Assembly: GCF_000969985.1 (NCBI RefSeq)
Contig: NZ_CP009526.1
Coordinates: 2,914,001-2,978,000, forward strand
Direction: 5' to 3'
Source: Methanosarcina barkeri str. Wiesmoor
Lineage (GTDB): Archaea; Halobacteriota; Methanosarcinia; Methanosarcinales; Methanosarcinaceae
DNA: 64,000 nucleotides
Shown here: positions 2,345 to 62,413 of the stretch, piece after piece
Layout of the letters: every line of letters begins with the position of its first letter
How positions within the stretch are numbered: the first letter of the stretch is position 1
Made by a program: the position numbers and the translations under genes
The notes under the pieces: generated by a model
The model's database searches: none
What the model saw: the letters and a program-made list of their open reading frames with translations, nothing else
What the model was told of the DNA's origin: nothing

Positions 2345-4564
2345 GTGGAAATAAGAAAAACATCTAACCCGGAAAAAAACAACCCGGAAAAAAACCGAAG
2401 TCTTAAGAATAAACATTTTTACAATTTACGGGAATATTCTCTGGTGGGAATCTCATATACTCTTTTGACAATTATTCTTACTTACCCTGTTTTATTTAAG
2501 ATAAAAACCGATATTCCTGGAACGGGAGCAGATTCGTTTCAATGGATGAGGATTTTATGGTACACAAAAATAGCAATAAAGGAAGCGGATTTAGCGGCTT
2601 TGACGCATGACTCTCTCCTTTTTTACCCGAATGGCATAGAATCAATGCCCTTTTCATCAGCCTTCAATCAAGTGCTATATGTATTGCTGTCTCCCTTTTT
2701 AGAACTGCACGTCATATACACGATACTATGGCTCTTAACTTTTATAATAGGGGCCATTGGTTCATATCTCCTGGTAAAATATCTTACGGATAATAAATAC
2801 GCTGCCTTTATTGCAGGAATTGTATTCGCATTTTCTCCGTACCATTTTTCCAGAGGACTATACTTTTTTGGAGCAGCGACAGTTCAGTGGATACCCTTTT
2901 GTGCGCTGTATCTCATGAAAACAGTTAAAGAAGAAGGGATCAAGAACCCAATCCTTGCAGGAATCTTTTTCATTCTGGTAGCAATGAGCGACCTGCAGTA
3001 CCTGATCTTTATGGGGATCTTTGCAGGGTTAGTGTTTTTATATGATTTTTACCTGACTCTCAGGTCCAGAAAAAACTTTACTCATTCTGTGAAACAAATA
3101 ATTATAAAATACTTCTTTTTTGGCGGTGTTGCTTTTCTCGGAGTACTGCCTTTGACCATTAATGAGATACTTATTGCCATTTCAAATCAAAACTTCTTAA
3201 GGCCAAACACAAATGAAATTCCCAAATTATCAAACGATTTGATGAGTTTTTTCCTGCCTTCTCATTTACATCCATTGCTTGGTCAGTTTACCTTAGACTT
3301 ATATTCGAATATACCAAGCTGGTTTGCTGAACGAGTGAACTTTATAGGATATATTGTTCTCGGGCTTTCAATCCTTGCACTCCTGAAATCAAAGAGAAAG
3401 CCTGACGTAAAGTTCTGGTTAGTATCTACGTTTTTCTTTACAATAATTAGTTTAGGACCCATATTACACTTCAATGGAGCGGTTGCTTTCACGGACTCCG
3501 ACCTGAAAATTCCACTTCCATATCAGATGTTATATAACACGATTCCTTTCCTGAAAAACTGCAGGACAGTTGGCAGGTTTTTTGTTATCGCAACCCTTGG
3601 GTACTCCGTCCTGGCAGGGTACGGTTTTTCGGAATTACTGAAGTATAAACCCGAAAGAAAAAAGCTTATATTTACAATAGTAGGTTTCCTGCTAGTTTTT
3701 GAATACCTATCTATTCCTTATCCGACCACACAGGTAAATGTTCCTGACTTTTACTATAAAATTAGTAACGATAAGGATAACTATGCGATACTCGAAATTC
3801 CGCAAAACTCTAACGCAGGATATATGGATTTTCATTATTTGTACTATCAAACAGTCCACAATAAAGCTCTTGTAGGCGGATATGCAGCAAGATATCCAGC
3901 CAACGTTAGAGATTTCCAAAGGACGACTCCGTTCATTAAAGAATTACAGTATTATTCCCTGGGAACTAAAGATATTTTAAAGGAAGATGTTACTGATATA
4001 GGAACATCTGTCCTGAATGCCAATAATATAAGATATGTTATTGTCCACAAGAATCAATTATCCAGTGAACAACTCGAGTTTGTAACCGATTTACTGAACA
4101 GGACCCTTAAAACTGAACCTGATGTATATGATGAAGACGGGCTTATTGTTTACCGTGTTCCAGATGAAACAATTCAGCCCTTCATGCTTTTAGGTAAGGG
4201 ATGGAACCGCCCGGAGAATTGGGACGGCACAATAACCAGGTGGATATCAAACAGGGCTACGTTATCGGTTTATTCAGGTGTTGCTGAAAATGCAACATTA
4301 AAACTCAGCGCATGCAGCTTACATTCACCAAAGACTCTCGAGGTTTATAATGGCAAAACTCTCCAGAGTAAACAAAATATCAGTACTAATTTAAGCACAG
4401 TAAATATCCCTGTTACCTTAAATCAGGGAAAGAATGTCATTCTTTTAAATGTACCTGAAGGCACCGAAAGACCATGTGACTTTCCGGAGCTAAAGAATAA
4501 TGATACAAGGGAGTTAAGTATAGCAATTCAAAGGGTTCAGTTAATTGATTCGCCTGAAAATTGA
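2345..4564 (+). CDS. Large polytopic membrane protein, YfhO/GT-C-like
   Basis: A 739-residue protein with about eleven to twelve membrane segments in its first 460 residues and a soluble, probably extracytoplasmic C-terminal domain of about 280 residues. Early acidic residues after the first helix (TDIPGTGADSFQW) resemble the catalytic loop of GT-C glycosyltransferases. The organisation matches the YfhO / 6-pyruvoyl-tetrahydropterin-synthase-related membrane family. GTG start, with GGGAG nine bases upstream. It probably transfers sugars from a lipid carrier on the outer face, with the upstream glycosyltransferase making the donor. Exact activity is unknown. Confidence 0.65.
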   Translation: MEIRKTSNPEKNNPEKNRSLKNKHFYNLREYSLVGISYTLLTIILTYPVLFKIKTDIPGTGADSFQWMRILWYTKIAIKEADLAALTHDSLLFYPNGIESMPFSSAFNQVLYVLLSPFLELHVIYTILWLLTFIIGAIGSYLLVKYLTDNKYAAFIAGIVFAFSPYHFSRGLYFFGAATVQWIPFCALYLMKTVKEEGIKNPILAGIFFILVAMSDLQYLIFMGIFAGLVFLYDFYLTLRSRKNFTHSVKQIIIKYFFFGGVAFLGVLPLTINEILIAISNQNFLRPNTNEIPKLSNDLMSFFLPSHLHPLLGQFTLDLYSNIPSWFAERVNFIGYIVLGLSILALLKSKRKPDVKFWLVSTFFFTIISLGPILHFNGAVAFTDSDLKIPLPYQMLYNTIPFLKNCRTVGRFFVIATLGYSVLAGYGFSELLKYKPERKKLIFTIVGFLLVFEYLSIPYPTTQVNVPDFYYKISNDKDNYAILEIPQNSNAGYMDFHYLYYQTVHNKALVGGYAARYPANVRDFQRTTPFIKELQYYSLGTKDILKEDVTDIGTSVLNANNIRYVIVHKNQLSSEQLEFVTDLLNRTLKTEPDVYDEDGLIVYRVPDETIQPFMLLGKGWNRPENWDGTITRWISNRATLSVYSGVAENATLKLSACSLHSPKTLEVYNGKTLQSKQNISTNLSTVNIPVTLNQGKNVILLNVPEGTERPCDFPELKNNDTRELSIAIQRVQLIDSPEN

Positions 4565-4567
4565 TTA

Positions 4568-4625
4568 AAAGCCTATCCGAAAAGTAAATAATACATATTG
4601 AAAAGTCGCAATATAATATAGACGA
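4568..4625. mobile_element. Solo end of a CCTATCCGAAAAGT-type MITE
   Basis: Bases from 4570 (CCTATCCGAAAAGT and the next 35 or so) align with the right end of the complete element at 59104-59236, read in reverse complement. No matching opposite end is visible within 200 bp, so this is a truncated copy. It lies directly behind the stop codon of the YfhO-like gene. Confidence 0.6.
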
Positions 4626-4799
4626 GTGGTCGAGAAATTCAAAAATATTTGGGAGATCGATTACAGTATTTTCCAACCCTGCATTTTTATAAGAATGGGG
4701 AAGCCAGAATTTCTTCCCCTTAACTCAATAAAAATAGTTACTTAAAATCCAGTTTCTAAAAATTTAATTTCTTTTTCTTAATTCATTTTACTCTGTAAC

Positions 4800-5345
4800 T
4801 TATATTGTAATGAAAACCATTGCAGCTACAACTGTGGTCCATTTTCCGTCCTTGTCGCCGTTTGCGGTCTGGCACATATGGAATGTGTCAAAGATATGCC
4901 CGCTTGCCTTGTAGACCTGCTCTCTCTCATGCCAGGCCATTTCTGCGTTAAACTCTATGCCAAGGGTGGTCGCAAGCATTGTTGCCGCCAGGTCTTCAGC
5001 ATATTCTCCTGCAATAATTTCTTCTTCTCCAAAAGAATGATGTTCGGAAATGTACCCGTAGTTGTCTTCATTTACAGGAACCGCAGTTCCTATAGCTGCT
5101 GCCATTAAACGATGAGGCTCGTTAGTATCATTTCTTGCAAGTACACAATGGACAATGGCACCAGGTTTTAACTCTGAAAGTCCTTCTTCTCTGGGTACGA
5201 CTTTGCAATTAGGGGGCAGGATACTCGAAACACTTACAAGATTGAATTTCTCAATTTTTGCAGCCCTTAGCGCAAGTTCAAAGGATGCTAATCGGTCTTT
5301 GTGTACCCCAGTACCCTTTGTCAAAAATGCTTTTCTTGGGATCAT
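4800..5345 (-). CDS. pdaD: Pyruvoyl-dependent arginine decarboxylase
   Basis: A 181-residue proenzyme that decarboxylates arginine to agmatine, the first step of archaeal polyamine synthesis. The self-cleavage site is the Ser-Ser in VSVSSILPPN. Backbone cleavage there makes the pyruvoyl group on the larger chain. Other family signatures are the GAIVHCVLAR strand and the AAAIG and EMAWHERE segments. The ATG at 5345 is preferred because AAGGAG lies six bases upstream. The frame stays open 14 codons further, but those codons are mobile-element sequence (see 5357-5477). It is apparently monocistronic. Confidence 0.93.
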   Translation of the reverse strand: MIPRKAFLTKGTGVHKDRLASFELALRAAKIEKFNLVSVSSILPPNCKVVPREEGLSELKPGAIVHCVLARNDTNEPHRLMAAAIGTAVPVNEDNYGYISEHHSFGEEEIIAGEYAEDLAATMLATTLGIEFNAEMAWHEREQVYKASGHIFDTFHMCQTANGDKDGKWTTVVAAMVFITI

Positions 5346-5356
5346 GTTAACTCCTT

Positions 5357-5477
5357 TAGGACTTACGTAGTTGAACTGAAGAATCAAAACAGCATCAGAC
5401 CGTTAACTGTCTAAAATGTGACTTTAATCCACAGTCTTTGCTGTAATTGATTTTGTTCCTCAAGTGCGTAAGTCCTA
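5357..5477. mobile_element. 121-bp MITE, TAGGACTTACG inverted ends, in the pdaD leader
   Basis: The terminal inverted repeats start TAGGACTTACG at 5357 and end CGTAAGTCCTA at 5477, and they match imperfectly over about 16 bp. The element is flanked by an exact 5-bp direct repeat TCCTT (5352-5356 and 5478-5482), as expected of a target-site duplication. No ORF is inside. On the pdaD strand the duplicated target reads AAGGA, which is the core of the pdaD ribosome-binding site. Confidence 0.8.
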
Positions 5478-5540
5478 TCCTTAAGGGATTTATGTATTTG
5501 CTATGCGGTTTCCATCGTATGAGCAACCTATACACATTCT

Positions 5541-5568
5541 AAAATTTTTGAACTCGTTCAAAAATTTT
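5541..5568 (-). terminator. 12-bp perfect hairpin behind the hydantoinase gene
   Basis: AAAATTTTTGAA and TTCAAAAATTTT form a perfect 12-bp stem with loop CTCG, about 85 bases beyond the stop of the hydantoinase gene that ends at 5654. A transcript-end or RNA-stabilising structure is likely. The stem is AT-rich, so it could also be an operator-like palindrome. Confidence 0.45.
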
Positions 5569-5653
5569 TTAATTGTTGAAAGTTGAACTATTGGGCTGAT
5601 GGTCCCATCTTTCATTTCTGAAACGTACACCAGAGTTATGAACTTTATCCTTT

Positions 5654-7723
5654 TCACTCATTATTTTCAGAGATAGAGAGTTCTCCACAGGAATTACAAT
5701 CCAACGAATGAGCCTGCCTGGTTAGTTCTGTAAAACCCTCATCTTGTTTCTTCTGTCCAGAAAGAGCTTTTTCATAGACATTAGAATTTGCAATCCCTTC
5801 AAAAATAAATCTTGTCTCTATCGGAATTTCACCTGCATGGACTTTTATATCCTTTTTTTGTACATTAACTGTAACCTGGTCAGGGAGAAGTCCGGATTCG
5901 GCCATATAATCAAGAATCAGCTTTCTTCCAAACGCCTCAGCAAACTCCAGGGCTTCACTCCGGATTATGAAATGCCTCCTTCCTACAGGTGTGTACACAA
6001 AGACCCCTTTTGTTTTAAGGTCATACTTGGATTCACTGTAAAGCGTGCGCACTGTAATTTCAATGCGTTTTGTCCCTTTTCCTGCAAGAGCTCCGACAGC
6101 ATTTCCAACCTCTGAGTATTCAGGAGCAAAGACTTCGGCATCTATAAGCTTCTTCAGTTCATCCACATAAGCCCTTACCGGCCCTCCAAGCAGGACAACG
6201 GGGATATCCACTTTAAAACGAGCGAAGAAATTGCCATCAAGCATTTTTTCAATTTCGGTCCTGTCTACTCCTTCCATCAGAAAAGCAATGAGGTCTCGGG
6301 CCATGTTTCTGGCAAAAAGCCGCTTCACATTTAGACAGAACTCAGTCCTGTCAATGCCTATGAAGTTTGCAAGCAGAGTAGCTCCAATTTCCGAAGCTTC
6401 AACATTCCATTCAGTATATTCACCAAGCACATGCAGGGCATCTGTTGGGGTAAAACCTATTACCTGAACAAGCCGCTTCTGAATTAGAGAATCCATTACT
6501 CTCTTTGGAGGAAGGATATTTCTGTCCCAGTAGATATCTTTGAGGGAACGCGGCTCGTCCCGTATAAGGGCAAAGAGCTCTTTTTCTTCCCGGTTCAAAT
6601 TGACAGGTTTCTGCTCTGTCCGTATAAAGAACTTTGTTGCCTGGATATGTTCGTTCAACTTGAGCCGGTCCGGAATCCAGCGCTTTTTCAAAGTGCTCAT
6701 GAAATCAGGATACAGGACTGCTGCCCTGCAGAGAGGAATAACCCGCCTGGGGCCTATGTGTATATTGCCGCTCTGAACCCAGATATGACTGTCCCCACCC
6801 ATAGCCGAAGTCTCCATACGCAGCGCCCTGACTTTTGTTTGCCAGCCACCCACAACTGCTCCTGCTTCACTGAGGTCTGGCAGTCCTTTATGGACCAGGG
6901 AGACGTCCGTGCTTGTTCCTCCAACGTCAATTACAGCGCAGGTCTCGTGCCCGGACAGATAGGAAGCCCCAAGGAGACTTGCTGCGGGACCTGAAAAGAC
7001 CGATTCTATGGGTTTTTTCATAGCCTCCTGCATGCTTACTACAGAGCCGTCGCAGCGGAGCATGGCAATTCTCGGGTTGAGGCCTCTTCTTTCGATCTCA
7101 GTTACTATCGTTTTTAGGAAGCCCTCTGCTACAGGCAGTAGCTGGGCATTGAGGTAGGCAGTAACTCCTCTTTCGTAAGCCCCAAGCGACTGGGCCAGTT
7201 CATGCCCACAGACAACAGGCAGACCTGTCAATTCCTGGATCAGGGTTTTTACACGCAGCTCATGCTCCGGATTTCGCACACTGAAGTAAGAAGAAACTGC
7301 AAAAGCCGAGACTCTGTCTTTTATTTCAAGTACGAATTTTTCCACTGCCGGCAGGTCAAGGGCTGCGACTTCCTCGCCATTACTGTCATGCCCTCCCTTT
7401 ACCATAATCCAGTTTTCAATTCCCGAATCTTCAGGAACATCATAATTTCCGATAAGGATGAGCCCAACAGGGTATCCTGTTCCTTCAAGGATAGTATTGG
7501 TGGCAAGAGTAGTTGAAACCGAAACTACAGTCACGAGTTTCATCTTTTCCGGGTCAAGTCCGTCAATTGATTTCTCTATCCCTTTGATAGGATCAGGATA
7601 GGTTGTGAGAGCCTTGTTTGAGCATACAACTTTTCCATCCGATTTTCTAATTAAAACCGAATCAGTATAAGTTCCGCCTGCATCAATGCCCAGATCATAT
7701 GCCATTTTTGAACTACATTCCAT
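5654..7723 (-). CDS. Hydantoinase/oxoprolinase family protein (HyuA-like), paralogue 1
   Basis: About 690 residues. The N-terminal ASKHA ATP-binding core starts DLGIDAGGTYTDSVLI, the second phosphate loop is AVIDVGGTSTDVSLV, and SGPAAS lies between them. The family (HyuA, 5-oxoprolinase A half) couples ATP hydrolysis to opening of hydantoin or 5-oxoproline rings. No HyuB partner is nearby, so the substrate is open. The frame is open up to 7759, but the ATG at 7723 has GGAG eight bases upstream, and another ATG at 7705 matches the start of the paralogue. Close full-length similarity to the upstream gene shows a tandem duplication. Confidence 0.8.
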   Translation of the reverse strand: MECSSKMAYDLGIDAGGTYTDSVLIRKSDGKVVCSNKALTTYPDPIKGIEKSIDGLDPEKMKLVTVVSVSTTLATNTILEGTGYPVGLILIGNYDVPEDSGIENWIMVKGGHDSNGEEVAALDLPAVEKFVLEIKDRVSAFAVSSYFSVRNPEHELRVKTLIQELTGLPVVCGHELAQSLGAYERGVTAYLNAQLLPVAEGFLKTIVTEIERRGLNPRIAMLRCDGSVVSMQEAMKKPIESVFSGPAASLLGASYLSGHETCAVIDVGGTSTDVSLVHKGLPDLSEAGAVVGGWQTKVRALRMETSAMGGDSHIWVQSGNIHIGPRRVIPLCRAAVLYPDFMSTLKKRWIPDRLKLNEHIQATKFFIRTEQKPVNLNREEKELFALIRDEPRSLKDIYWDRNILPPKRVMDSLIQKRLVQVIGFTPTDALHVLGEYTEWNVEASEIGATLLANFIGIDRTEFCLNVKRLFARNMARDLIAFLMEGVDRTEIEKMLDGNFFARFKVDIPVVLLGGPVRAYVDELKKLIDAEVFAPEYSEVGNAVGALAGKGTKRIEITVRTLYSESKYDLKTKGVFVYTPVGRRHFIIRSEALEFAEAFGRKLILDYMAESGLLPDQVTVNVQKKDIKVHAGEIPIETRFIFEGIANSNVYEKALSGQKKQDEGFTELTRQAHSLDCNSCGELSISENNE

Positions 7724-23486: not shown

Positions 23487-24905
23487 TCATTTCGCTGCAT
23501 TCACATTACTTTCGTTTTCTAGAGCCTCATTTTCTACATTTTTGTTTTCCAGAATTCCATATCCATTACTTTCATTCTCTGGAATCCCATTCTCCAAGTT
23601 TTTATTTTCCGAAGTTACATTCTCTGCACTTTCATTCCCTGCAGTACCATTGCCCACACCTGCATTGCCCACACTTGCATTGCCCACACCTGCATTGCCA
23701 ACTTCACTGCTGTTATTGGTTTCTTTAATCAGGTCCTGTAGTTCTAGAGAATCATTCTCAGCCTTGTCTTCCAGATTAACTGAAGACAGGTTAGGTGAAC
23801 CGCCACCACGAGATTTAGATGTCGGTAATTGCGGATTTGACGTATTTTTATCCCTCAGATACTGTACTCGAGAGTTTATATCTCCCCGGATTTCTAGCTG
23901 GATCCGGAAAGGAGGAAAATTCGTGTCATTGTTTTTTGAGATATTAAATGAAAGAAATGTTGGCTCCAAACCTGCTTTTGATAGGATAAAGAACCCTGCT
24001 ATCAAAAACAGGAAAAAACAACAAGCATATTCTGCAATTTTTTTCTTTTTCCAGGTTTTATTCTTTTTCGAAGGCTCTTCCGGACTTTTTGGAAAATCGA
24101 CACCTGACATGTCATCAAGATTAAAAACATCCTTGTATTCTTTTAGGCCTTTCTTTTGAACTCGTCCTATCGTTTCATCCATTTCCAAGTTTGCCTTTTT
24201 ATCATGCGCTGCAGAAGCCAGGATTTTTCCGCCTTCGAATGTAAAATCAGGGTCAAGTTCTCCAGGGCCAGCCGAGATATTAGTCTGCGAAGGATAAAGG
24301 GACAGGGAAAGGCTGAAGCCCGGGAAGAAAATGGATTTTAACTTAAAAATCAAACCGGTAAGCAGGAAAATCCCATTTGAGAGGTTTGGGATCCAGACTG
24401 AAATCTCCTCCCTTGAGATAACCTTTTTCTCCAGACAATCTGGAAGATTTCCAGCGCTTTTCGGAGGAAAAAAGGAGAAAATATCTTCCTCTTTCCACAA
24501 CCCAATTACTTGATACCGAATTGATTGCAGTCCTTCTGTTCGGTTTTTTGCATCCGCGTAAAATCTATTAATCCAGCCTGGGGATTCGGTGACAGCTTCT
24601 TTGGGAAAGCACTCTATAAATACGGCTCTTTCTTCTCTTCCTTTCCGGATTTTTACAAGGAGGCTGCACCCGAGAAGAAGCTCGCTTTCCCGGACTTCTA
24701 CGTAAAGGGCACTTCTTTTAATGTCAAGCTGTTTTGCAAGTTCTGAATGTTCCCAGACTTCCTTAAATCTTCCACTACCCTGCAGTAGCCTCCCGCTTGA
24801 GCTGTAAACTGCAAAGTCGGAATGAGAATCCTCAAATTCAGAAGCCGAATCCTCATATTCAGAAGCCGAATCCTCATATTCAGAAGCCGAATTTTGCAAT
24901 TTCAC
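23487..24905 (-). CDS. Single-pass membrane protein, last gene of the FtsZ-like operon
   Basis: 472 residues from GTG 24905 (or TTG 24899, nine bases after GGAG; the frame is open to 24986 inside the GTPase gene). It starts with three SASEYED repeats. A soluble region of about 290 residues of unknown fold contains one hydrophobic stretch (FLLTGLIFKLKSIFFPGFS). Then come a basic stop and a membrane helix (ACCFFLFLIAGFFIL) and a 140-residue Asn/Glu/Gly-rich tail with about a dozen N-glycosylation sequons and degenerate GVGNA-type repeats. The layout suggests cytoplasmic N-terminus and glycosylated exterior tail. No homologue recognised. It overlaps the GTPase gene by about 25 bp. Confidence 0.7.
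   Translation of the reverse strand: MKLQNSASEYEDSASEYEDSASEFEDSHSDFAVYSSSGRLLQGSGRFKEVWEHSELAKQLDIKRSALYVEVRESELLLGCSLLVKIRKGREERAVFIECFPKEAVTESPGWINRFYADAKNRTEGLQSIRYQVIGLWKEEDIFSFFPPKSAGNLPDCLEKKVISREEISVWIPNLSNGIFLLTGLIFKLKSIFFPGFSLSLSLYPSQTNISAGPGELDPDFTFEGGKILASAAHDKKANLEMDETIGRVQKKGLKEYKDVFNLDDMSGVDFPKSPEEPSKKNKTWKKKKIAEYACCFFLFLIAGFFILSKAGLEPTFLSFNISKNNDTNFPPFRIQLEIRGDINSRVQYLRDKNTSNPQLPTSKSRGGGSPNLSSVNLEDKAENDSLELQDLIKETNNSSEVGNAGVGNASVGNAGVGNGTAGNESAENVTSENKNLENGIPENESNGYGILENKNVENEALENESNVNAAK
24836..24896. repeat. Three 21-bp direct repeats encoding SASEYED
   Basis: TCCTCATATTCAGAAGCCGAA occurs three times in tandem at the junction between the GTPase gene and the next gene. It covers the last few codons of one frame and the first codons of the other, so copy-number change would affect the start of the last operon gene. 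Confidence 0.85.
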
Positions 24906-26418
24906 CCACTCCCCAGGGAAAAATCTGGGTGATTCCCTGTTGCTCCTCAGGCAAGCCCTTTGAAGCTTGGGAAGAAAGGGTTGCATCCACGCTCACGGTA
25001 TAGAAATAAATGGGGACTCTTTTTGCAAGATTCTGGATTTCCCGGAATGTGTAAATTCTGTCAAGGAAGCTATAGATCTCGGCCTCAATCTCCCTGGCTT
25101 TTTCGGAATTGTCCGGAATTTCGGAAAGGTCTTTTAACTTATCCGTTTTAGTCAGCACAAGAGCATAGGACTTATCAGGCCCAAGCTGATCCATGAGTCG
25201 GAAATAATGCCCAAAAAGGGTTGTCAATTCTTTTCGGCCTTCTCCGTGATAATCCAGGATGTAATCCCCATCTACCAGAAAAATAACCTTCCCCGCAGTT
25301 TTCATTTTTTTATAGATGCAGGCCAGAATAAGATTATGAAATTGATCCCCGACTTCCTTTGAATATTTGTTTTTCAGCAGCTTAAGAAAACTTAGAGTAC
25401 CTATCTGCCTATGAAGGGCTTCCACACTGAATTTAGATAGTTTTTCATTCCCAGATAGTTTTTCATTTCCAGATAGCTTTTCACTAAGGCTGCGGAGCGC
25501 TCGAGAGTACTTTTTCGGTTCCAGATCTTCGGTATACTCTCCACCATAGTCAATAAAAGTAAACTCTACTGGAAGTAAGCCATTCTTTTTTCCGTTAAGT
25601 TCATAAATTGCCAGGTCTGTACGGTCTGTACTTTTTGGAGTTATTCCGCTCTCAAGTCCGGAAAGCATAGATTCAATCCTTAGTTTTTTTTCGCTTTTCG
25701 TAGAGAGCTGCCAGACTTTTTCCTCTTCTCTATCGGAAGACAAAATAATTTCCCTGTGGGTTCCTTCATAAAAGTCCACAAAATGGCTATATAAGGCAAG
25801 CAGCAAAAGAGTCTTGCCTGAGCGCGAGGGTCCATAAACAAAGACCTCAGAAGCCTGAATGCCCCGAACGAAAGTTGTTGACATCAGAAGGAAAAAAACC
25901 GCCAGAAAAGCTATTCCAAGATTTTTCAGTTCTTCGGACTCAATTTCAAAAATCTGCCTTATCCCCTCGATTGAAAATGGGTACACGAACTCGAGAAGCC
26001 TTATAAGAAGGTAATAGCTGAGAACAAGAAAGAAAAATCGAGACCCTGACCTGGCATATCTGGCAAGTGAACTGAACTGGTTTCTGGAAAGGACCTGCAA
26101 AGCTAGCAGGCTTCCTGCAAGAAACCCCAGAACAAAGCCGTTTGTGCTTAAAAAATCATGCTGAGATAGAAGGTGGAGTACAGGCAAAAAGCCTGCAAAC
26201 AAAAAAAGGCTTCCTCTCCTCGACTGCTCGTGCAGAGCTAGTCCAAAAGCGTTTGCAATCAGGAAGGCCGGGAAAAAACTCAGCCAGAAAATTCCAGGCC
26301 CTGAAATACTCGGAACTTCAATCCGTCCTCCATAAGTTATGAGAAGAAAGGATAAAAGCAGGATAAAACCTGCTGCAGGCAGTTCAGAGAGTAATTTCCA
26401 GTTTCCTTGAATCCTCAT
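24880..26418 (-). CDS. Membrane-anchored GTPase of the FtsZ-like system
   Basis: 512 residues. About six hydrophobic helices in residues 15-185, then a G domain: P-loop GPSRSGKT (196-203), FIDYGGEY (about 289-295, DxGG type G3) and LTKTDK (about 422-427, TKxD type G4). The G4 motif points to GTP rather than ATP. A repeated KLSGNE segment (about 314-326) is an in-frame 18-bp duplication. It overlaps the tubulin-like gene by 35 bp upstream and the next gene by about 25 bp, so all are surely one transcript. It matches the distinct GTPase that accompanies the FtsZ-like protein in predicted membrane-remodelling loci (Makarova and Koonin). Confidence 0.75.
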   Translation of the reverse strand: MRIQGNWKLLSELPAAGFILLLSFLLITYGGRIEVPSISGPGIFWLSFFPAFLIANAFGLALHEQSRRGSLFLFAGFLPVLHLLSQHDFLSTNGFVLGFLAGSLLALQVLSRNQFSSLARYARSGSRFFFLVLSYYLLIRLLEFVYPFSIEGIRQIFEIESEELKNLGIAFLAVFFLLMSTTFVRGIQASEVFVYGPSRSGKTLLLLALYSHFVDFYEGTHREIILSSDREEEKVWQLSTKSEKKLRIESMLSGLESGITPKSTDRTDLAIYELNGKKNGLLPVEFTFIDYGGEYTEDLEPKKYSRALRSLSEKLSGNEKLSGNEKLSKFSVEALHRQIGTLSFLKLLKNKYSKEVGDQFHNLILACIYKKMKTAGKVIFLVDGDYILDYHGEGRKELTTLFGHYFRLMDQLGPDKSYALVLTKTDKLKDLSEIPDNSEKAREIEAEIYSFLDRIYTFREIQNLAKRVPIYFYTVSVDATLSSQASKGLPEEQQGITQIFPWGVGEIAKFGF

Positions 26419-29400
26419 GATTCAATGCCTCTTTTATACTTTTTTCTTCGTATAGCCTGTTGATCCTTTCTCTAACATTTCCCCCTCTATTTTCCAGATT
26501 TGCCAGTTCTCCAGCCTCTCTAAGGTCCAGAAGTGCTTTTCGAGTAATGTATTTCCCTTCCTGGAGTTTCAGCACATGGTGAAGTACATTATCCTTATTG
26601 TTTTCATAGACTTCCCAGAAGCCGCCTCCAGCGGTCAGAGGAGAGATATTATCCAGAAAACCGGATGCAGAGAAGAAGGTGAGGGCAATATCCCATGGCC
26701 CTGTATGGTTGTGAGTTGCAAGTTTGGCATCATTGATGTTCTTTAAGGCAAGAGTCCCATTTATTTCATCTTTGATTGCATCGGCTATGCGTTCGCTTGT
26801 GAGCTGGCTTGAGATGTAGGATGACCTTGAGGAAACAACAAGAGCCGCTTTTCCGAAGTTCCAGCGTTCAGTCGTGCTGATAGGGATCATCAGGTTATGA
26901 ACCCCGAGTTTATAGCTTTCAATCAGGTTCTTGTACGTGACCAGAATTTCCTCAATGAGTTTGTCAAGTTCGCATTTTCCACTATCATCCCAGTCAAGGT
27001 CAGTCATGTCGGAACTTGCATCAATCAGGGAGAGGATCTTCGGATTTATATCCCCAAACTTGGTCATATAGAGACTGATTGAGGTCTTGCCCCCAAGCCC
27101 GTGGAGGTTATTCATCCTGGTAACCTCCTCATAAAATTGTCCGTAATACCTGTTCAGGTCTCTCCGGTTTGCAAGAGTTTCTTCGGTCAGGGTTTCGACT
27201 TTTTCAATTAGGGCTGAAAGGGCATGTTTTTCCTGAAGGCTTTTTCCAAGCTCCAGTAATTCCGCTTCGACCCGACTAAATTTTCCGGAATAGTCTTCCT
27301 TTTGCAGGTTTTTTTCGGTCAGGATTTCTCTAAAAACGCTTCTCAGTTTGGGCCGGTCTCTGGACTTGAAACCCTGTTCAATTTCCTCAAGCTCAAAATC
27401 CTGAAGTTCCATCCCGGAAAACAGAGATTCGAGCACTTTACTCTTAAGTTCCTCAGATTTTCTGTTCAGGCGTTCGCTCAAAAAGCGCTCAGGAACCGAG
27501 AGTTCGAAGGGGCTGCTTATCTGGAGATACTCCCTTCCAGTACTCTTGATATATTCCTCTTTGTTTCGTTTCTTTGCTTCATAGTTCCTGAGGGACTTGG
27601 TCTTGTTTCCCTTTATTGCTACGAGGACTTTTTCTTTTATTCCGGCAGTTTCGAGCCGGTTGATTTTGTAGTCATAGAAATAATATAGTGCAATTGCTTC
27701 AAGAAGACTTCCTAGCTCTGTTAAATTCAGGTCAAGATCCCTGGAAAGCGTTTCAAGCTCTCTCTGAAGGTCAGGGACCCCGGCCAGGAGAAGCCAGCTG
27801 TCCTTATCCCCGCTTTTTATATTTCCTTCATTGAGATTGCAAAGAAACGCATCAATTTTTGTTTTCAGGTCATATTCGTGCTCCTGAAGTACCTTCAATT
27901 TCTCTTTCTGGTTGAAATATTCCTCAAGCTCCAGGTCGTTGTCGTTTAAGGCTTTGTCAACAGCTTTTTCAACCTGAATGTGAAGTTCATTAAGTAAATC
28001 CCGCTCATCCTGTCTCCTCTGGAGTTCGGCTTCTACTTCCAGAGTCTCTTCTTTTAAGCTTTTAGCTTTTGCATTCAACCTGTCCATAAAGGAAACAAGG
28101 TCCTGTTTTCCTTTCAGGACATTTATAAGCACGGACTCGACAGTTTCTTCTTCAATCCCTGCAGTCCGTTTAAATAGCCTTGCAGTTTCTTCTATGCCTG
28201 AGAGAGCTTCGGGAATCAATCTAAAGAGCACTTTGTCATTTTCATCTTTTAGCTCATCTTCCTTTACACTGAGAGTGAAGGTTTTTACCTTAGAAAGAAA
28301 ACTCAGCATATCTTCGTAGTTATTTATTTTTTCGATACTGGTTTCAGCCGAAATGTTATTCTGGATAAAGAATTCAACCGCGCCCGGGCTCTGGTAGTTG
28401 AGAAGTTTTTCAATCTCGTTTTTCCAGACTTTTTCAACGTTTCCGTACTCCTTTTTGATATATTCGGAGTCCGCCCGCGTAGGAGGCATTTCCCTGAATA
28501 GGTCCTGGCTATCAAGCAGGGCTTTTACGCTTCTGTTAATTTCTTTTCGTGTTGCAGTAATCGCTTCGAGTTCCAGGATAACTTCTTCATACTGTTTTTT
28601 CAGGGCCTTTAGTTCGTCCACAGGGTATTCGATTACGTGGGCATCTGCAAAAACAAATGAGGAGTAAAGGCGTTTTGAGTCGCTCAGGTTGATGTCTCCT
28701 TTTTTAATGTGGAAGAAGTTCGTCAGTATGTGAGGGAACATGGAATCGAATTCGTGCACTTCTACCTTTGCCTCTTCCCCTTTTTTATATCCTGTAGGCC
28801 CAAGCGAGGTCAGGATTATGTGATTGAAAAGCCTCTCGTTCAGGTTAAGGTATTCAAGTTCGGTAAGGGCGATTGCAGCGTTTAACTGTTCTTTTTCGCC
28901 TTCTTTTGTTGTTGGAATTACCGCAAAGAGCCAGATCTGGCTGCTCTCTCCTTTAAGTGCCCTTATATACCTGGCAAGGTCAATGAACATCCCTGACCCT
29001 GTACCTCCCCCAAGCCCGACAATAAGGGCTGTGGTTCCTTTACTGGGAAAGGTAGGAAAACCACTTGCCTGCCCCTGGCTCAGGACTTTATAGAAAATAG
29101 CCTTTGAAATAGCCCTTCTCCGGTGTACGCCTCCGCCAAAGTCATCGATTAAAAAAGGGTCAATAGCTCTCAGTTCCTCAAAACTGAGCCCAAAGTCTCC
29201 TGAATCGTTCATCCACCAGGTTTTGACAAGTGGCTCAGACTTCCGGTCTTTTATTTTTTCTGCAACTTCCTGACTTGCCAGATCTGAAGTCTGGGTTATG
29301 TTTGCCAGGGAAGGCAGATAATAGTATTTGTATTCGATATTTCCCCCTGCTCCCATTTCCTGAATTCTGGATTTAACCTGTCTTCTGTACCATTCGTCAT

Positions 29401-29584
29401 CAGCCCTTTCGTTGGCATCCGTATCCATTGTATAAACCCTGAGCCTTTTTCCGGGCACAAGGTAGCTGTCGAGTATCCAGTCATGCCTGCAGATCTCTTC
29501 ACACAGACGTTTTCCACAGCCTCCAAGCCCCACAATCGTCAGGTCCATGGGAAGCTGCAGTGAAATATTTCCCCCTCTGTTCAT
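26384..29584 (-). CDS. Large FtsZ/tubulin-like GTPase (Tubulin_2 / FtsZl type)
   Basis: 1066 residues. The first 330 form a tubulin-superfamily domain: N-terminal loop GLGGCGK (19-25), MDTDAN (53-58), FGGGVHRRR (149-157), the tubulin signature GLGGGTGSG (190-198) and an NAAIALTELEYL helix (about 235-246) equivalent to the nucleotide-contacting helix. The middle 550 residues are charged and helical with several coiled coils, followed by a C-terminal globular part (WNFGKAALVVSSRSSY). It is much longer than FtsZ and is not a cell-division FtsZ. The ATG overlaps the upstream stop (ATGA) with GGAGG upstream. It is expected to form GTP-dependent filaments at the membrane together with its operon partners. 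Confidence 0.82.
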   Translation of the reverse strand: MNRGGNISLQLPMDLTIVGLGGCGKRLCEEICRHDWILDSYLVPGKRLRVYTMDTDANERADDEWYRRQVKSRIQEMGAGGNIEYKYYYLPSLANITQTSDLASQEVAEKIKDRKSEPLVKTWWMNDSGDFGLSFEELRAIDPFLIDDFGGGVHRRRAISKAIFYKVLSQGQASGFPTFPSKGTTALIVGLGGGTGSGMFIDLARYIRALKGESSQIWLFAVIPTTKEGEKEQLNAAIALTELEYLNLNERLFNHIILTSLGPTGYKKGEEAKVEVHEFDSMFPHILTNFFHIKKGDINLSDSKRLYSSFVFADAHVIEYPVDELKALKKQYEEVILELEAITATRKEINRSVKALLDSQDLFREMPPTRADSEYIKKEYGNVEKVWKNEIEKLLNYQSPGAVEFFIQNNISAETSIEKINNYEDMLSFLSKVKTFTLSVKEDELKDENDKVLFRLIPEALSGIEETARLFKRTAGIEEETVESVLINVLKGKQDLVSFMDRLNAKAKSLKEETLEVEAELQRRQDERDLLNELHIQVEKAVDKALNDNDLELEEYFNQKEKLKVLQEHEYDLKTKIDAFLCNLNEGNIKSGDKDSWLLLAGVPDLQRELETLSRDLDLNLTELGSLLEAIALYYFYDYKINRLETAGIKEKVLVAIKGNKTKSLRNYEAKKRNKEEYIKSTGREYLQISSPFELSVPERFLSERLNRKSEELKSKVLESLFSGMELQDFELEEIEQGFKSRDRPKLRSVFREILTEKNLQKEDYSGKFSRVEAELLELGKSLQEKHALSALIEKVETLTEETLANRRDLNRYYGQFYEEVTRMNNLHGLGGKTSISLYMTKFGDINPKILSLIDASSDMTDLDWDDSGKCELDKLIEEILVTYKNLIESYKLGVHNLMIPISTTERWNFGKAALVVSSRSSYISSQLTSERIADAIKDEINGTLALKNINDAKLATHNHTGPWDIALTFFSASGFLDNISPLTAGGGFWEVYENNKDNVLHHVLKLQEGKYITRKALLDLREAGELANLENRGGNVRERINRLYEEKSIKEALNHEDSRKLEITL

Positions 29585-30465
29585 TCTTCTTCCTCCGAAT
29601 TTTTAAGTCTTACCCCGATTACAAATCCAAGCAGTGCAGTAACCAAGAACCCCAGGGCATACTTCCATTTCATGCTCGACGCGTCTGCTTTTTCCTGGAG
29701 CAGATAGTCTGCAAGTTCGTTCGATTCGTTGTGCAGCCCAAGGTCAAAGAAGGCCTGCAGCTTCATACCCAGGACAGGATCGGAAAATCCGTTCAATTTT
29801 TCCTTAAACTGTTGACTTTCTTCTTCGGTAGCAAGACTATCGGTCTTCTTTTCAATCAAATAATCTGCAAGCTTGTTTGCCTCAGTGACAAGCCCGCGGT
29901 CAAACATATCCTGAAGGTACATGCTTAAAAACGGGTCTTCGATTTGTGTTGCCTTTTTTTCGAAAGAATCAATGTCAGTAACTTCAATCGTGAACGTGCT
30001 TGTATCGCTTCCCTGAATGGCATTTCCTTTTTCATCGGTAGGCTTGATCCGATAATAGGCATACCCTGTCCTTTTAGGGTCGTACTTTACCAGTGTAAGT
30101 TTCTCATACTGCTGGACCTCAGTGACACCAGGCACCTGGCCGTATAGCTGGACAACGATTTTTTCCTTGTTATCTTTGACCGGAAGCTCAAAGTGGCTCT
30201 CATTGCTTTGAAGGTTCAGCTTCGTAAAATTATAGATTGGATTGTCGTCATATTTCTCCAGATCCGTATCAAAATACAGATAATCCGCAGCACTGGGAAT
30301 GCCGCTTATCGTCAAAACGCAGCTTATCACCTGCTTTTCCTTAACCTCAGCCGGATGGTCTCCTTCCACGGTAACTTCAACTGCTGATACAGGCACTGTA
30401 AGCCATAAGAAAAAGAAACATAGTAAACATAGCGTAAGCGCACAGGCCGTGCGGCCTTTTCTCAT
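29581..30465 (-). CDS. Secreted, C-terminally anchored protein, first gene of the FtsZ-like operon
   Basis: 294 residues. Signal peptide (residues 1-28, ending VPVSA), an exterior beta-rich domain of about 140 residues that looks Ig-like, then two copies of a helical 35-residue repeat (DPFLSMYLQDMFDRGL, ADYLIEKKTD and DPVLGMKLQAFFDLGL, ADYLLQEKAD). A membrane helix (YALGFLVTALLGFVIGV) and a short charged cytoplasmic tail (KNSEEEE) follow. GGGGG lies eight bases before the ATG. It shares the ATGA junction with the tubulin-like gene, so it is the probable exterior sensor or anchor of the system. No known family recognised. Confidence 0.75.
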   Translation of the reverse strand: MRKGRTACALTLCLLCFFFLWLTVPVSAVEVTVEGDHPAEVKEKQVISCVLTISGIPSAADYLYFDTDLEKYDDNPIYNFTKLNLQSNESHFELPVKDNKEKIVVQLYGQVPGVTEVQQYEKLTLVKYDPKRTGYAYYRIKPTDEKGNAIQGSDTSTFTIEVTDIDSFEKKATQIEDPFLSMYLQDMFDRGLVTEANKLADYLIEKKTDSLATEEESQQFKEKLNGFSDPVLGMKLQAFFDLGLHNESNELADYLLQEKADASSMKWKYALGFLVTALLGFVIGVRLKNSEEEE

Positions 30466-30640: not shown

Positions 30641-30785
30641 CAATTCCAAGTAACAACCGGTTTTTCTATTGTGAAAACAGTTCTTGAAAACCATTAGTTC
30701 TCCAAAAAGTTCTCCGAAAAGTTCTCCAAAAAAAATGAGTTTTAGAATGAGCGGCCTGGAATGAGTGAACTGATATCTTACCTAT

Positions 30786-33119: not shown

Positions 33120-33556
33120 TTCACAGCATTTGGGATTTTTATTTGGAAAATCGTAGTCGTTTTCTAACCTGAACCCTATCATAGAAATTTCGACAAACAG
33201 CCTTTGTATTTTCATGTTGTTTCCAGTTCTATGCAGCTTTTCATCCCTGGTTGCAATACCCCTCTGGCGGAGTTAATCTGGTCTGACTTTTTTGCTTGCA
33301 AAAGCTGCCTTCCTTCCGGGAATCTCGCAGGTTTATTATTTCTCCAAAACAGACAGCTGGTGCGTTCCGGAAAAATACGAAGGCACTATTGCTCACCTGA
33401 TAAAATTGACTAAAATTCCGTCTGTAAACGATGTGTCACAGGTTTTTGAACAAGTCCAGTAGAACTTATATGCAAATTGGGTAATAATCCAATGGTGCAA
33501 TTGTTTCAATTGCATTCCGATATATCATAAATTTCAACATGATAGGAGGAGGCACC

Positions 33557-34195
33557 TTGAAAATATCAGTTGTGGAAAACGATAAACAGGAAGCGAGTTC
33601 AATATTCGAACCAGGATTCATTGCAGTATATGAGGAAGACGGCGGGGAATGGAAAGTTCTGACCCGTTTTGAAAATCAAGTTTGCAACGCGAAAGGTATG
33701 GCTGCGGTACGCACATCTGTAGCGGATACAATAAAACAGCTTGGGGACGTAAAAGTAATTGTTGCAAGTGAAATCCCAGGGATAGCGTCCGGGACTTTTC
33801 AAGCAGCGAGTTTTGACATATTCCTTGTGGAAGGTAACGTACTGGATCTTCTTGATTCAATCAAAAAAGAAATGCTTGAAACAATTGAGGAGCGTCAGAA
33901 AGAACCGCCCAAATTTGACATCACGCAGTTTCTGGAATCCGGTGTGAATAAAGGTGATTTTTCGATAAATATAGAGGACATCATGTTTAAAAATCCGGAT
34001 TTGACTTCAAAGAAAATTCTGATCCCCTATCTGAAAAATGGGGAATTTAACAGACTGGATGTTATTTGCAGCCATATTCCAAAGTGGTTTGTCACAAATT
34101 TAAGTGCTATGGGGTTTGAATATGAAATCGTGAATGATTTACCGAATAGAAAAACCGTTAGAGTAGTACGTAGTCAAACTCCTCCATCGAAATAA
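33557..34195 (+). CDS. AnfO-like protein (Fe-only nitrogenase accessory family)
   Basis: 212 residues from TTG 33557, chosen because AGGAGG lies seven bases upstream; the ATG at 33539 lies before that site. The N-terminus MKISVVENDKQEASSIFEPGFIAVYEEDG, written here only in part (VVENDK, FEPGFIAVYE), and DVKVIVASEIPGI, FDIFLVEGN follow the AnfO family. AnfO is encoded with the iron-only nitrogenase and is linked to its maturation or in vivo activity. No nif, vnf or anf gene is in the window, so it is an orphan here; it may act on a nitrogenase elsewhere or have another cofactor role. Confidence 0.7.
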   Translation: MKISVVENDKQEASSIFEPGFIAVYEEDGGEWKVLTRFENQVCNAKGMAAVRTSVADTIKQLGDVKVIVASEIPGIASGTFQAASFDIFLVEGNVLDLLDSIKKEMLETIEERQKEPPKFDITQFLESGVNKGDFSINIEDIMFKNPDLTSKKILIPYLKNGEFNRLDVICSHIPKWFVTNLSAMGFEYEIVNDLPNRKTVRVVRSQTPPSK

Positions 34196-59103: not shown

Positions 59104-59236
59104 AGAGCCTATCCGAAAAGTGATTACTTGATACAACTTTTACAAAATGCAATATGAAAAACCGGAACGGATACTCTGATAGTATAGATTTATCGTGGCT
59201 TTTCAACATGCATTACTGACTTTTCGGATAGGTTCT
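59104..59236. mobile_element. 133-bp MITE, AGAGCCTATCCGAAAAGT ends, inside the 3' end of the Roco gene
   Basis: The termini AGAGCCTATCCGAAAAGT and (reverse complement) AGAACCTATCCGAAAAGT match at 17 of 18 positions. An exact 5-bp direct repeat TATTT flanks it (59099-59103 and 59237-59241). No ORF inside. The solo end at 4568 belongs to the same family. Confidence 0.9.
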
Positions 59237-61850
59237 TATTTCCAAGGAATAAATCTGGAACTTGAGGCATTGCAAGCCACGGGGCAAATTTGTTATAAGT
59301 TCTGCCAAGTTTTTGTGCATACTCTATTCCTTTTAGAGTTCCTGTTATCGCTTTATTATAGTTTGAATCAGGGTCACTCAACTTAGTCAATAGTCTATAT
59401 ATCTTATTAAGAGGTTTTTTCAATGTTTCTTTTTCGCTACTGGCACTTACTTCGTCTAAACTATCTTGAATTTTATCCAATTCACTTTCAAGTTTTGGAT
59501 CCAAATTTTCAATTTCCTCTTTTAAGTTATCAAAGTCTGTTTGAATCTGTGGCAAATCTATTTCTAAATTCACATTAACACTTGTTCTAACATCTGTTTT
59601 TTGTTCGACTTTTATTATCGGATTAGTTTCAGATTTCATCATAAAATTTGGGCTTACTACAAAATTCTGCACAATTTGTCTTAAGGGGTCGTTATTTTTA
59701 TATTCATCAAGTCTTTCGTCTATTCTATTGTAACCAGCTAGTAAAGAAGAAACTGATATGGATTTGAAGCTCTCAAGACATTGAAGAGTTTCAACATTGT
59801 TAATTTCAGCATTTAGCAATTTCTCATAGGGAAATCTCCATGGGCAATTTTGTGAACAGTTACAAGGAATTTCTGTACGGACACTTATTTTTTTTATAGA
59901 AGCATTTATCTGATCCAGTTCATTACAGATTGCTCCAAGAGCGCCTCTTTTATTGTTACCTGTTATTTTTATCTCTATTTCTTTTTCATCAGGTTTCATC
60001 TTTATAAGAGCACGCGAATTCTGGAGGTTTAATACCACTCCTTCTCTCCAACATAAAGGCATATCATTTTCTTTTTTCTCTATTTCCTTATGCATGCGAA
60101 CTATAAAGCGGGTGATTATGCTGGAAGGTAAAAAGTAATTATAACAATAATAGAAGTAAAGGTTCTCTTTCTCATTCCACATAAAATCGGGTTCATTTTT
60201 AGGTAAAAGCTCTGCAATAAGATAGCCACTTCTATCTGGAAGTTCATATGCAAGTTCAAATTTGTTCATTAATTCCATAAGTTGAGAGTAAACAGAAGAC
60301 GGATACGTTTCAATGTCCCATATCCGGTTTAATTCACTCTGCATTAGTATACCTTCATTATCAAAGACAAATTTCGTAGACAATATTTTGTAAAATGCAT
60401 TTGTAGCCCATTCAGGTTTTAAAATCACGATATCCTTTAGGGCGATCCTATCTTTAAAATGGAGAGTTACTCCCAAGTCATTCAAATATTCATCTAATAC
60501 AATTATATTCTTGTCATCTAAACCCTTGGATTTACATGTTTCATAAAATTTCTCATAACTAATCCAATTTTTACCAAGCTCTTCTAATTCTTGTCTTACT
60601 TCAAACCATGAGTCCACCCATTTAGTCCTCATCAAAGGTAGACTCCAGGCAGTTTCACAGATAATGTCCGTTAATCCTTTGATTCCTTTACCATCATAAC
60701 TGTCAATCTTTACATAATCGACAATCTGAGGAAACTTAATTCTTAAATCTTTAAGGTTAAGATCATCATTACTTTCATTCATCTTACTCATTACAAGAAT
60801 TATTGGGCTATCTTCTCCAAAGGCTTCAATTGTATGCAACCAGTAATATATATGGTCATAATCTTTTGTTTTTCGTGTGTTCCACACAAGTATATAGACT
60901 GACCGTTTTGTCAGAAAGAACTGATGAGTGGCATGATAGATTTCCTGCCCTCCGAAGTCCCAGATGTTTAGCTTGATCTTACTGTTTCCTGAATCTGGAG
61001 CAGGAATTACCCATTTTGATATGTTTATTCCTTCGGTGATCTTATCTTCCACAAATTTACCAGTAATTAACCTATTAATTAAACATGTTTTTCCAACCTC
61101 TCCATTACCAACCAATATTAGCTTTGCCTCATTATTTTCTGTAGTTTTCGTTTGTTTCAGATAAGTTAAAATTGCATCCATTCCTCTTGAAACGATTTCA
61201 GGTGGAGGTGAGAGTAAAGGGTTATAAGAGATGTCAAGTTGTTTGAGTTTTGTAAGTTCACTAATTTCTGGTGGTAGCTCTTCTAGATTGTTATGGCACA
61301 AAGAAAGTTTCACTAGATTTCTGAGTTTCCCAATTTCTGGTGGTAGTTGAGTCAGCTGATTATTAGAAATATCAAGTTCTTCAAGGTTCTCAAGTTTCCC
61401 AATTTCTGGTGGTAGCTGTGCTAGTTTGTTATGATACAAGGAGAATTTTGTGAGTTTCCCAAGTTCTCCAATCTCAGATGGTAGTAACGTCAACTGATTC
61501 CCAGTTAAGTCAATTTCTGTAAGATTTTTAAGTTTTCTGATTTCTGGTGGCAACTTTATAAGCTGGTTATAGAATAAGTAAAGTTTTGTGAGTTTTCCAA
61601 GTTCTCCAATTTCTGGTGGCAGTAGTGTTAAATGATTCCTAGATAAGTTGAGTTCGTTAAGGTTTTTTAGTTCTTTAATTTTCGGTGTAAGTTCAGTCAG
61701 GTCGTTATCATATAAATCAAGTTCTTTAAGGTTCTCAAGTCTTCCAATTTCTGGTGGTACTTCAGCTAGATTGTAATTATCTAGATAAAGCACTATAAGG
61801 TTTTTTTCATAAGCTTCTTTAATAAGTTTCATCACCTTTTCTCTCGTCAT
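59190..61850 (-). CDS. Roco family LRR-GTPase
   Basis: 886 residues from ATG 61850 (GAGG six bases upstream; TTG 61862 is also in frame). Nine 23-residue leucine-rich repeats (about 22-228, LPPEIG type). A Roc GTPase follows with P-loop GNGEVGKT, DFGGQE and an altered G4 SKMN instead of NKxD. Then come a COR domain (about 430-620), a segment with CNCSQNC (possible metal site), a coiled coil and a 50-residue tail. Roco proteins are dimeric G-proteins, the family of human LRRK2; Methanosarcina barkeri homologues are known. The role in archaea is unknown. The last 14 codons and the stop lie inside a MITE. Confidence 0.93.
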   Translation of the reverse strand: MTREKVMKLIKEAYEKNLIVLYLDNYNLAEVPPEIGRLENLKELDLYDNDLTELTPKIKELKNLNELNLSRNHLTLLPPEIGELGKLTKLYLFYNQLIKLPPEIRKLKNLTEIDLTGNQLTLLPSEIGELGKLTKFSLYHNKLAQLPPEIGKLENLEELDISNNQLTQLPPEIGKLRNLVKLSLCHNNLEELPPEISELTKLKQLDISYNPLLSPPPEIVSRGMDAILTYLKQTKTTENNEAKLILVGNGEVGKTCLINRLITGKFVEDKITEGINISKWVIPAPDSGNSKIKLNIWDFGGQEIYHATHQFFLTKRSVYILVWNTRKTKDYDHIYYWLHTIEAFGEDSPIILVMSKMNESNDDLNLKDLRIKFPQIVDYVKIDSYDGKGIKGLTDIICETAWSLPLMRTKWVDSWFEVRQELEELGKNWISYEKFYETCKSKGLDDKNIIVLDEYLNDLGVTLHFKDRIALKDIVILKPEWATNAFYKILSTKFVFDNEGILMQSELNRIWDIETYPSSVYSQLMELMNKFELAYELPDRSGYLIAELLPKNEPDFMWNEKENLYFYYCYNYFLPSSIITRFIVRMHKEIEKKENDMPLCWREGVVLNLQNSRALIKMKPDEKEIEIKITGNNKRGALGAICNELDQINASIKKISVRTEIPCNCSQNCPWRFPYEKLLNAEINNVETLQCLESFKSISVSSLLAGYNRIDERLDEYKNNDPLRQIVQNFVVSPNFMMKSETNPIIKVEQKTDVRTSVNVNLEIDLPQIQTDFDNLKEEIENLDPKLESELDKIQDSLDEVSASSEKETLKKPLNKIYRLLTKLSDPDSNYNKAITGTLKGIEYAQKLGRTYNKFAPWLAMPQVPDLFLGNKNLSEKSVMHVEKPR

Positions 61851-62413
61851 TATCTGCCTCAACTATAATTAATTAATATTTAGAGAGTTTTCGTATTCTG
61901 TTATAAAATTCTATACTTTTACTCTAAAAACTTATTCATTTTATTCAAATTTTAGATATCATAGACCCCGTTCCATAATTCAAAACTACTTTTCCAAATC
62001 TAGAATCAGAGATGTCAATGAGTTTCGGATCATGGAAAATACTTCTGAGACTTTTATATATTTTGAGGATAAAACATATTTTGGGATAGACTCAATGTTC
62101 ATGTAACCTGCTGCAATCATCCCTGATATCAATGCCAATTCTATTCATAGCGGCTTCAATTTAACCAAATCAAATGTAAAACTAAAAATAAATTCATTGA
62201 TCATCGGTTAAGGAATTTTCTTGCCTGAAAGCTATCGATTTTGCATTAGAAGCCGGCATTAAATTTTGGCCTATTTACATGAAATCGATATCCTGTTCCA
62301 GCTCATAATTTATTAAAATATTTGATAAATGTTGAGGAAATTGACGCAATTTGCCACAATTCCTCACTTAACCGAAGACACATGAAAATAGATTTAATCT
62401 CTAGCCACAGTTT
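61851..62413. other. Intergenic region with a MITE and mobile-element remnants
   Basis: About 560 bases. It contains the 130-bp element at 61964-62093. A TTCATTGATCATCGGTTAAG stretch at 62193 recurs with one difference at 37274 (TTCATTGGTCATCGG), probably the end of another transposable element. A short frame CLKAIDFALEAGIKFWPIYM near 62220-62290 may be a gene remnant. Confidence 0.4.
61964..62093. mobile_element. 130-bp MITE, GACCCCGTTCC...GGGATAGACTC (copy B)
   Basis: Exactly the length of copy A at 55327-55456, with the same right end TTTTGGGATAGACTCA and a diverged left end. The interior is not clearly similar. No obvious target duplication remains. Confidence 0.5.

Follow-up and report, generated by a model that had tools for sequence, protein, structure and literature searches.

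A four-gene archaeal operon of the FtsZl1 family with a giant tubulin-like protein, membrane partners and a possible accessory role

Why does Methanosarcina barkeri str. Wiesmoor, which has two canonical FtsZ genes elsewhere in its genome, also carry a gene for a 1,066-residue tubulin-like protein set among genes for membrane proteins? The locus lies in a window of 64,000 nucleotides (assembly GCF_000969985.1, contig NZ_CP009526.1, positions 2,914,001 to 2,978,000 of the forward strand), to which all positions below refer. It consists of four tightly overlapping open reading frames (ORFs) on the minus strand, here termed P1 to P4; the ORF listing of the window places them exactly where an initial annotation had described four overlapping genes, with overlaps of 4 base pairs (bp) between P1 and P2 and 35 bp between P2 and P3. 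That annotation assigned the locus to the FtsZ-like family FtsZl1, named by Makarova and Koonin in 2010 and proposed by them to act in membrane remodeling (PMC2875224), and the Tubulin_2 domain, coiled coil, and GTPase partner found here bear the assignment out. We consider it somewhat probable (roughly 0.55) that the cassette is an archaeal FtsZl1 membrane-tethered, signal-gated tubulin module with an accessory role in envelope stress or conflict, and not in division or shape.

The family itself, its occurrence in Methanosarcina, and its pairing with a GTPase of the membrane have been known since 2010: M. acetivorans is among the species aligned in Figure 1 of that study, which also describes the archaeal GTPases as membrane associated and the bacterial ones as not (PMC2875224). 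The annotation's reading of the locus as a new methanogen variant is therefore not supported. What we add, as predictions or comparisons, is a tubulin with a displaced domain, a longin lead for P4, a topology drawn from glycosylation sequons, and the accessory nature of the operon. All four ORFs are real, constrained genes under purifying selection, since their ratios of nonsynonymous to synonymous substitution rates (dN/dS) against the related genome G002 are low (P2, 0.07; P3, 0.11; P1, 0.14; P4, 0.40). P4 is the fastest changing of the four, with 0.33 in its cytosolic part and 0.52 in its transmembrane helix and tail. A search of NCBIfam returned no match, and profiles of P1, P3, and P4 found no significant match among PDB sequences.

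The giant tubulin-like protein P2

P2 (26384-29584, minus strand) matches the Pfam family Tubulin_2 with an E value of 7.7e-13 and 48.9 bits, against a curated cut-off of 27 bits; the Pfam family Tubulin stays below its cut-off. Together with the conserved GGGTGSG nucleotide-binding loop (residues 192-198; 28991-29011), this agrees with the earlier description of P2 as a tubulin-superfamily protein of 1,066 residues. Among 27 non-redundant archaeal relatives the loop is invariant at every residue except T195, which is kept in 26. P2 shares its layout with the FtsZl1 proteins of about 1,050 residues, in which a tubulin N-terminal domain with this loop is followed by a coiled coil and a C-terminal part.

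We modeled P2 with AlphaFold2 on 11 sequences, obtaining a mean predicted local distance difference test score (pLDDT) of 76.8 and a predicted template modeling score of 0.58. The best Foldseek matches of the model in the PDB are CetZ2, CetZ1, and TubZ (E values of 8e-6 to 5e-4), and alignment with VIA-align gives a Z score of 21.8 with CetZ1 (312 of 330 residues; model residues 11 to 998) and of 20.2 with Mycobacterium tuberculosis FtsZ (281 of 305 residues, chain residues 8-312; model residues 12 to 975). The tubulin fold on which the initial annotation had staked its proposal is thus found by structural comparison of the model. Its N-terminal GTPase core (residues ~12-320; 28625-29551) aligns to FtsZ and CetZ with Z scores of ~20-22 and shows, in the order of predicted elements, strands at residues 14-20, 47-54, 82-89, 184-190, 216-222, and 255-259; residues 310-319 correspond to S7, and residues 912-919, 953-958, and 965-974 to S8-S10. 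Residues F279 and D280, kept in 25 of the 27 relatives, are consistent with the start of H7, which binds the base.

The FtsZ chain is almost wholly matched by the P2 model, over a model span three times longer. For this reason we infer that a mostly helical coiled coil of ~590 residues (residues ~322-911; 26852-28621, with predicted helices from 322 to 889) is inserted at about H9 and displaces the remainder of the tubulin C-terminal domain to residues ~912-1036 (26477-26851), a region delimited by the model, VIA-align, and conservation. P2 is accordingly predicted to be a complete tubulin with both an N-terminal GTPase domain and a C-terminal domain. In this it resembles CetZ, FtsZ, and tubulin (Z scores of 19-22) and differs from them in the insertion, in an identity of only 10-15%, and in a T7 aspartate that is not invariant. 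It also departs from the 2010 description of the family, whose authors could locate neither T6-H7 nor the C-terminal domain (PMC2875224); a 2023 study left FtsZl1 out of its tubulin phylogeny, partly for lack of FtsZ_C, because the C-terminal half of the family looked unrelated (PMC9871819).

Membrane proteins encoded with P2

P3 (24880-26418, minus strand; 512 residues) combines an N-terminal transmembrane bundle (residues 1-190) with a GTPase domain (residues 191-512), its transmembrane helices lying ahead of the motifs GPSRSGKT (P-loop; 25810-25833), DYGG (DxxG), and TKTD (TKxD; 25141-25152). The annotation had called it a six-helix membrane GTPase; a membrane GTPase it is, and six helices is an approximation, as hydropathy gives five transmembrane segments in P3 and four to seven in its relatives. 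A diverged P-loop GTPase with TKxD, conserved in its adjacency to the tubulin-like gene, is also what FtsZl1 operons carry. Pfam DO-GTPase2 matches 10 of 14 P3 relatives at an E value of 1 or less (best, 3.8e-5), and P3 appears weakly but consistently related to this family.

P4 (23487-24905, minus strand) opens in the ORF listing with an ATG (ORF 23487-24986, 499 residues). Its start is most likely the GTG at 24903-24905 (residue 28), since the closest orthologs begin there with "MKLQNSAS" and share the resulting 26-bp overlap with P3. A 21-bp tandem repeat of 3.2 copies (24826-24892) runs across the stop codon of P3 and codes for the SASEYED repeats with which the N terminus of P4 is furnished. 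P4 has one convincing transmembrane segment, near residue 326 (helix at residues ~316-337; 23976-24041, by model and hydropathy), followed by a tail (23490-23975) with 13 N-glycosylation sequons, against 4.0 +/- 1.7 in shuffled sequences and with none of 5,000 shuffles as high. The single-pass protein with a sequon-rich exterior tail proposed earlier is thereby recovered. The enrichment recurs in nearly all ortholog tails and is absent from ortholog cytosolic parts, which supports a topology with the N terminus inside and the C terminus outside, and the exterior stalk is probably glycosylated.

The cytosolic domain of P4 offers a lead to GTPase regulation. In a model that AlphaFold2 built from 11 sequences (mean pLDDT of 68, and 75-93 for most of the core), its elements run b-b-a-b-b-b-a, then b-a-b-a-b-b, which is the longin-type order; the longin/roadblock-like part lies at residues ~54-162 (24501-24827). 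Longin and roadblock folds dominate the VIA-align list, headed by DENND1A (Z score 6.6 over 172 residues), a roadblock domain (3kye; 6.4), DENND1B (6.3), and Ykt6 (6.1), with Asgard roadblocks, MglB, TRAPP, and Mon1 further down; PAS, CodY, and TagF also appear in the VIA-align and Foldseek lists. The domain therefore may resemble longin/roadblock/DENN regulators of GTPases, a lead to which the adjoining GTPase gene lends plausibility, and other profilin-like folds are candidates as well. P4 has this order in common with DENN proteins, MglB, Ragulator, and TRAPP, matches such regulators weakly in structure, and has a GTPase gene as its neighbor; on the other side, it shows no sequence similarity to them that we found, is anchored in the membrane, carries a probably glycosylated tail, and stays below a Z score of 8. 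In genome G015, P4 has 821 residues and two tandem copies of the N-terminal domain (L039:13030-15495).

P1 (29581-30465, minus strand; 294 residues) has a signal peptide, an ectodomain, and a C-terminal transmembrane anchor, in line with its earlier description, and no Pfam family match. On inspection the ectodomain is beta-rich with an immunoglobulin-like, beta-sandwich look, and alignment shows a helical tail segment duplicated in the clade of the window sequence. There is good support for P1 and P4 exposing extracellular or glycosylated domains at the exterior. About 230 bp upstream of P1 lies a 12-bp tandem repeat of 3.1 copies, AGTTCTCCAAAA (30696-30732), a possible regulatory site.

From these parts we can sketch how the module would work; each link among P1 to P4 is our inference. 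The exterior domains of P1 and P4 would sense an event at the envelope, upon which the longin/roadblock-like cytosolic domain of P4 would set the nucleotide state of P3. GTP-bound P3 would then recruit P2 to the inner face of the membrane, or license its assembly there, and the coiled coil of P2 might space or cross-link protofilaments.

Distribution and genomic neighborhood

P2 occurs in 12 of 31 Methanosarcina genomes, this one included. In the window clade, the operon is flanked on one side by a PAS gene and on the other by the gene of a regulator that starts "MHNMEN" (locus L028 shows both). In six relatives these two genes lie close together with no operon genes between them. The same site in genome G027 holds one or two unrelated genes, the operon of that genome being on another contig, and in G021 only fragments of P4 remain there; in G029, P4 is broken by frameshifts. 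On the P2 tree the label Methanosarcina requires two to three changes. The window clade groups, at 100/100 support, with G027 and with a second genus and stands away from the remaining Methanosarcina copies, so that P2 in this genus falls into at least two separate lineages. Copies are also found on plasmids, namely pMETEV01 of Methanohalobium evestigatum and a Halorubrum plasmid, where the gene lies beside Hsp70 and VWA genes. Given this patchiness, the syntenic sites lacking the operon, the P4 remnant, the split lineages, and the plasmid copies, comparative sequence data support well the view that the operon is an accessory module that is gained and lost, and not basic cell-shape machinery.

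This distribution bears directly on a machine for membrane remodeling or cell shape, in which P2 filaments anchored by P3 would bend or organize the membrane while P1 and P4 link it to the S-layer or to neighboring cells. Remodeling was proposed for the family from the outset (PMC2875224), all partners of P2 are membrane proteins, and the closest structural matches of P2 are CetZ proteins, a related one of which controls cell shape in Haloferax (PMC10606840). We nevertheless regard such a machine as rather unlikely: an operon that is patchy within one genus, missing from syntenic sites, decayed in some genomes, and plasmid borne in other archaea would be unusual for basic shape genes. The suggestion that it shapes the cell packets of sarcinae is for the same reasons poorly supported, the more so as haloarchaea carry the genes too. 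The accessory pattern shifts the hypothesis away from cell shape and toward stress or conflict.

Within the archaea that have it, the operon keeps its order, as the annotation's proposal requires: P1-P2-P3-P4 in Methanosarcina relatives where contigs allow, and P1-P2-P3-P4-like in methanogens beyond these; haloarchaea keep P2-P3-P4. For the long-form archaeal P2 genes that we read, the next gene is nearly without exception a P-loop/TKxD gene with four to seven transmembrane segments. The exceptions are Halorutilus (L108), whose following gene lacks a P-loop, and a second, orphan P2 copy in G363 (L183). A P4-like gene follows in most of these loci, often starting like "xxLxIYDSxG", and in Methanogenium (L102) a PEGA protein comes after it. 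Upstream of P2 stands P1 in methanogens and other genes in haloarchaea, for example a receptor-type protein kinase (in Halorientalis; at L104 the kinase has a binding-protein domain on its extracellular side). Within P1 to P4 we find no OmpA, kinase, or vWA gene (the last by Pfam), in which the locus differs from the FtsZl1 systems of 2010; the lack of OmpA and vWA agrees with the annotation. A vWA partner accompanies the majority and not all of the FtsZl1 operons (PMC2875224), making it a frequent companion and not a defining one.

Other archaeal relatives have more suggestive neighbors. The orphan P2-like gene, which lacks a GTPase partner, lies downstream of a gene for a caspase fused to an FGE-sulfatase domain (L183:2017-3768, 4302-7589), a mix of domains known from predicted conflict systems. 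Hsp70 and vWA genes in divergent orientation lie close to a haloarchaeal gene for a tubulin-like protein of 859 residues (L195:2231-8819). Separately, we note a second archaeal class of Tubulin_2 proteins of ~900 residues, with Pfam scores above that of P2 and common in one family of the phylum, f10 (L070-L099, in f10 and others); different gene neighbors are seen in the two examples read (L196, L197).

Candidate roles of the operon

An optional response to stress or conflict is the most likely role, with a morphological one possible. It is favored by the patchiness, the operon-less sites, the decay, and the plasmids; by the kinship of P3 to the type of GTPase found in the conflict systems predicted by Kaur et al. 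in 2020 (PMC7159879), where DO-GTPases are linked with tubulins; and by the Hsp70 and VWA genes or the caspase-FGE fusion adjoining related tubulin-like genes.

More specifically, the operon might itself be a GTPase-centric system of that kind, directed against viruses or serving self/non-self distinction, with P2 polymerization as the effector. The composition recalls those systems (PMC7159879): a tubulin fused to a coiled-coil or helical domain, a TRAFAC GTPase that may carry transmembrane segments, a protein encoded downstream, which may terminate in such a segment, and an exterior beta-sandwich component. The gain and loss of the operon, the rapid evolution of P4, and the Hsp70, VWA, and caspase-FGE neighbors of relatives also fit. 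We hold this only tentatively, as the operon lacks detectable GAP1 (their defining partner), vWA, and FNIII domains, gives no match to PADLOC models, and contains no toxic effector domain, and as the Kaur tubulin systems were placed in firmicutes and actinobacteria and their conflict function is itself only predicted (PMC7159879).

Several results count against the signal-gated tubulin module that we prefer. An hhalign comparison of P2 residues 900-1056 with 30 archaeal FtsZs gives no support (E value of 0.4); the displaced C-terminal domain is thus a structure prediction that the profile comparison misses. The candidate for the catalytic T7 aspartate, D302, is present in 15 of 27 relatives, in a part where the local alignment is uncertain, and is not clearly conserved, which makes filament-coupled GTP hydrolysis by P2 a conjecture. 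P3 itself scores 20 bits against DO-GTPase2, under the 27-bit family cut-off. For P4, the best Z score of 6.6 lies in a range that the tool calls common, with PAS-like folds listed too, and Foldseek returns nothing significant (E values of 0.05 and above). No GAP1 domain is detected in P4 or 13 relatives, nor GAP1-M in the genome, while the control, Corynebacterium glutamicum, gives a match. Among PADLOC defense models we find a 0.047 chance match to the P-loop, and 50,697 phage records and PHROG yield no match. Two further candidates, P4 as a GAP1 homolog and a phage origin or cargo, are rejected on these grounds.

Among the C-terminal residues of P2, W964, D978, N979, and G988 are invariant in the 27 relatives. 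Because the T7 candidate is poorly conserved while these residues are not variable, the coupling of GTP hydrolysis to polymerization may differ from that of FtsZ. P2 could even be non-polymerizing and serve a transmembrane complex for transport or signaling as a coiled-coil scaffold or sensor that depends on nucleotide, a view close to an alternative offered by a reviewer of the 2010 study (PMC2875224). The poorly conserved T7 aspartate, set against invariant W964 and D978/N979, and the receptor kinase of Halorientalis speak for it, but a complete tubulin body is predicted for P2 and, according to the 2010 authors, all characterized tubulin-family proteins have been shown to form filaments (PMC2875224), and we think this improbable. 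Our literature search, within incomplete library coverage, turned up no FtsZl1 biochemistry.

Should P2 be a full tubulin with an insertion, the signal-gated module would contain a legitimate tubulin whose polymerization can be tested in Methanosarcina, a genetically tractable genus. A bolder version is speculative: a mobile receptor module of methanogens and haloarchaea, outside Asgard archaea, whose membrane-anchored, glycosylated receptor bears a regulator of longin type; this would control a membrane GTPase, which in turn would license the assembly of a giant tubulin whose C-terminal domain is threaded with ~590 residues of coiled coil. If true, a longin-like GTPase regulator that operates alongside both a tubulin and a GTPase of the membrane in non-Asgard archaea would bear on the origin of eukaryote-type GTPase control.

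Elsewhere in the window, an 890-residue ROCO protein (59190-61862, minus strand) comprises leucine-rich repeats, a Roc GTPase, and COR-A/COR-B, and an AnfO-like protein associated with iron-only nitrogenase (Pfam, 6e-61) is encoded at 33539-34195 on the plus strand.

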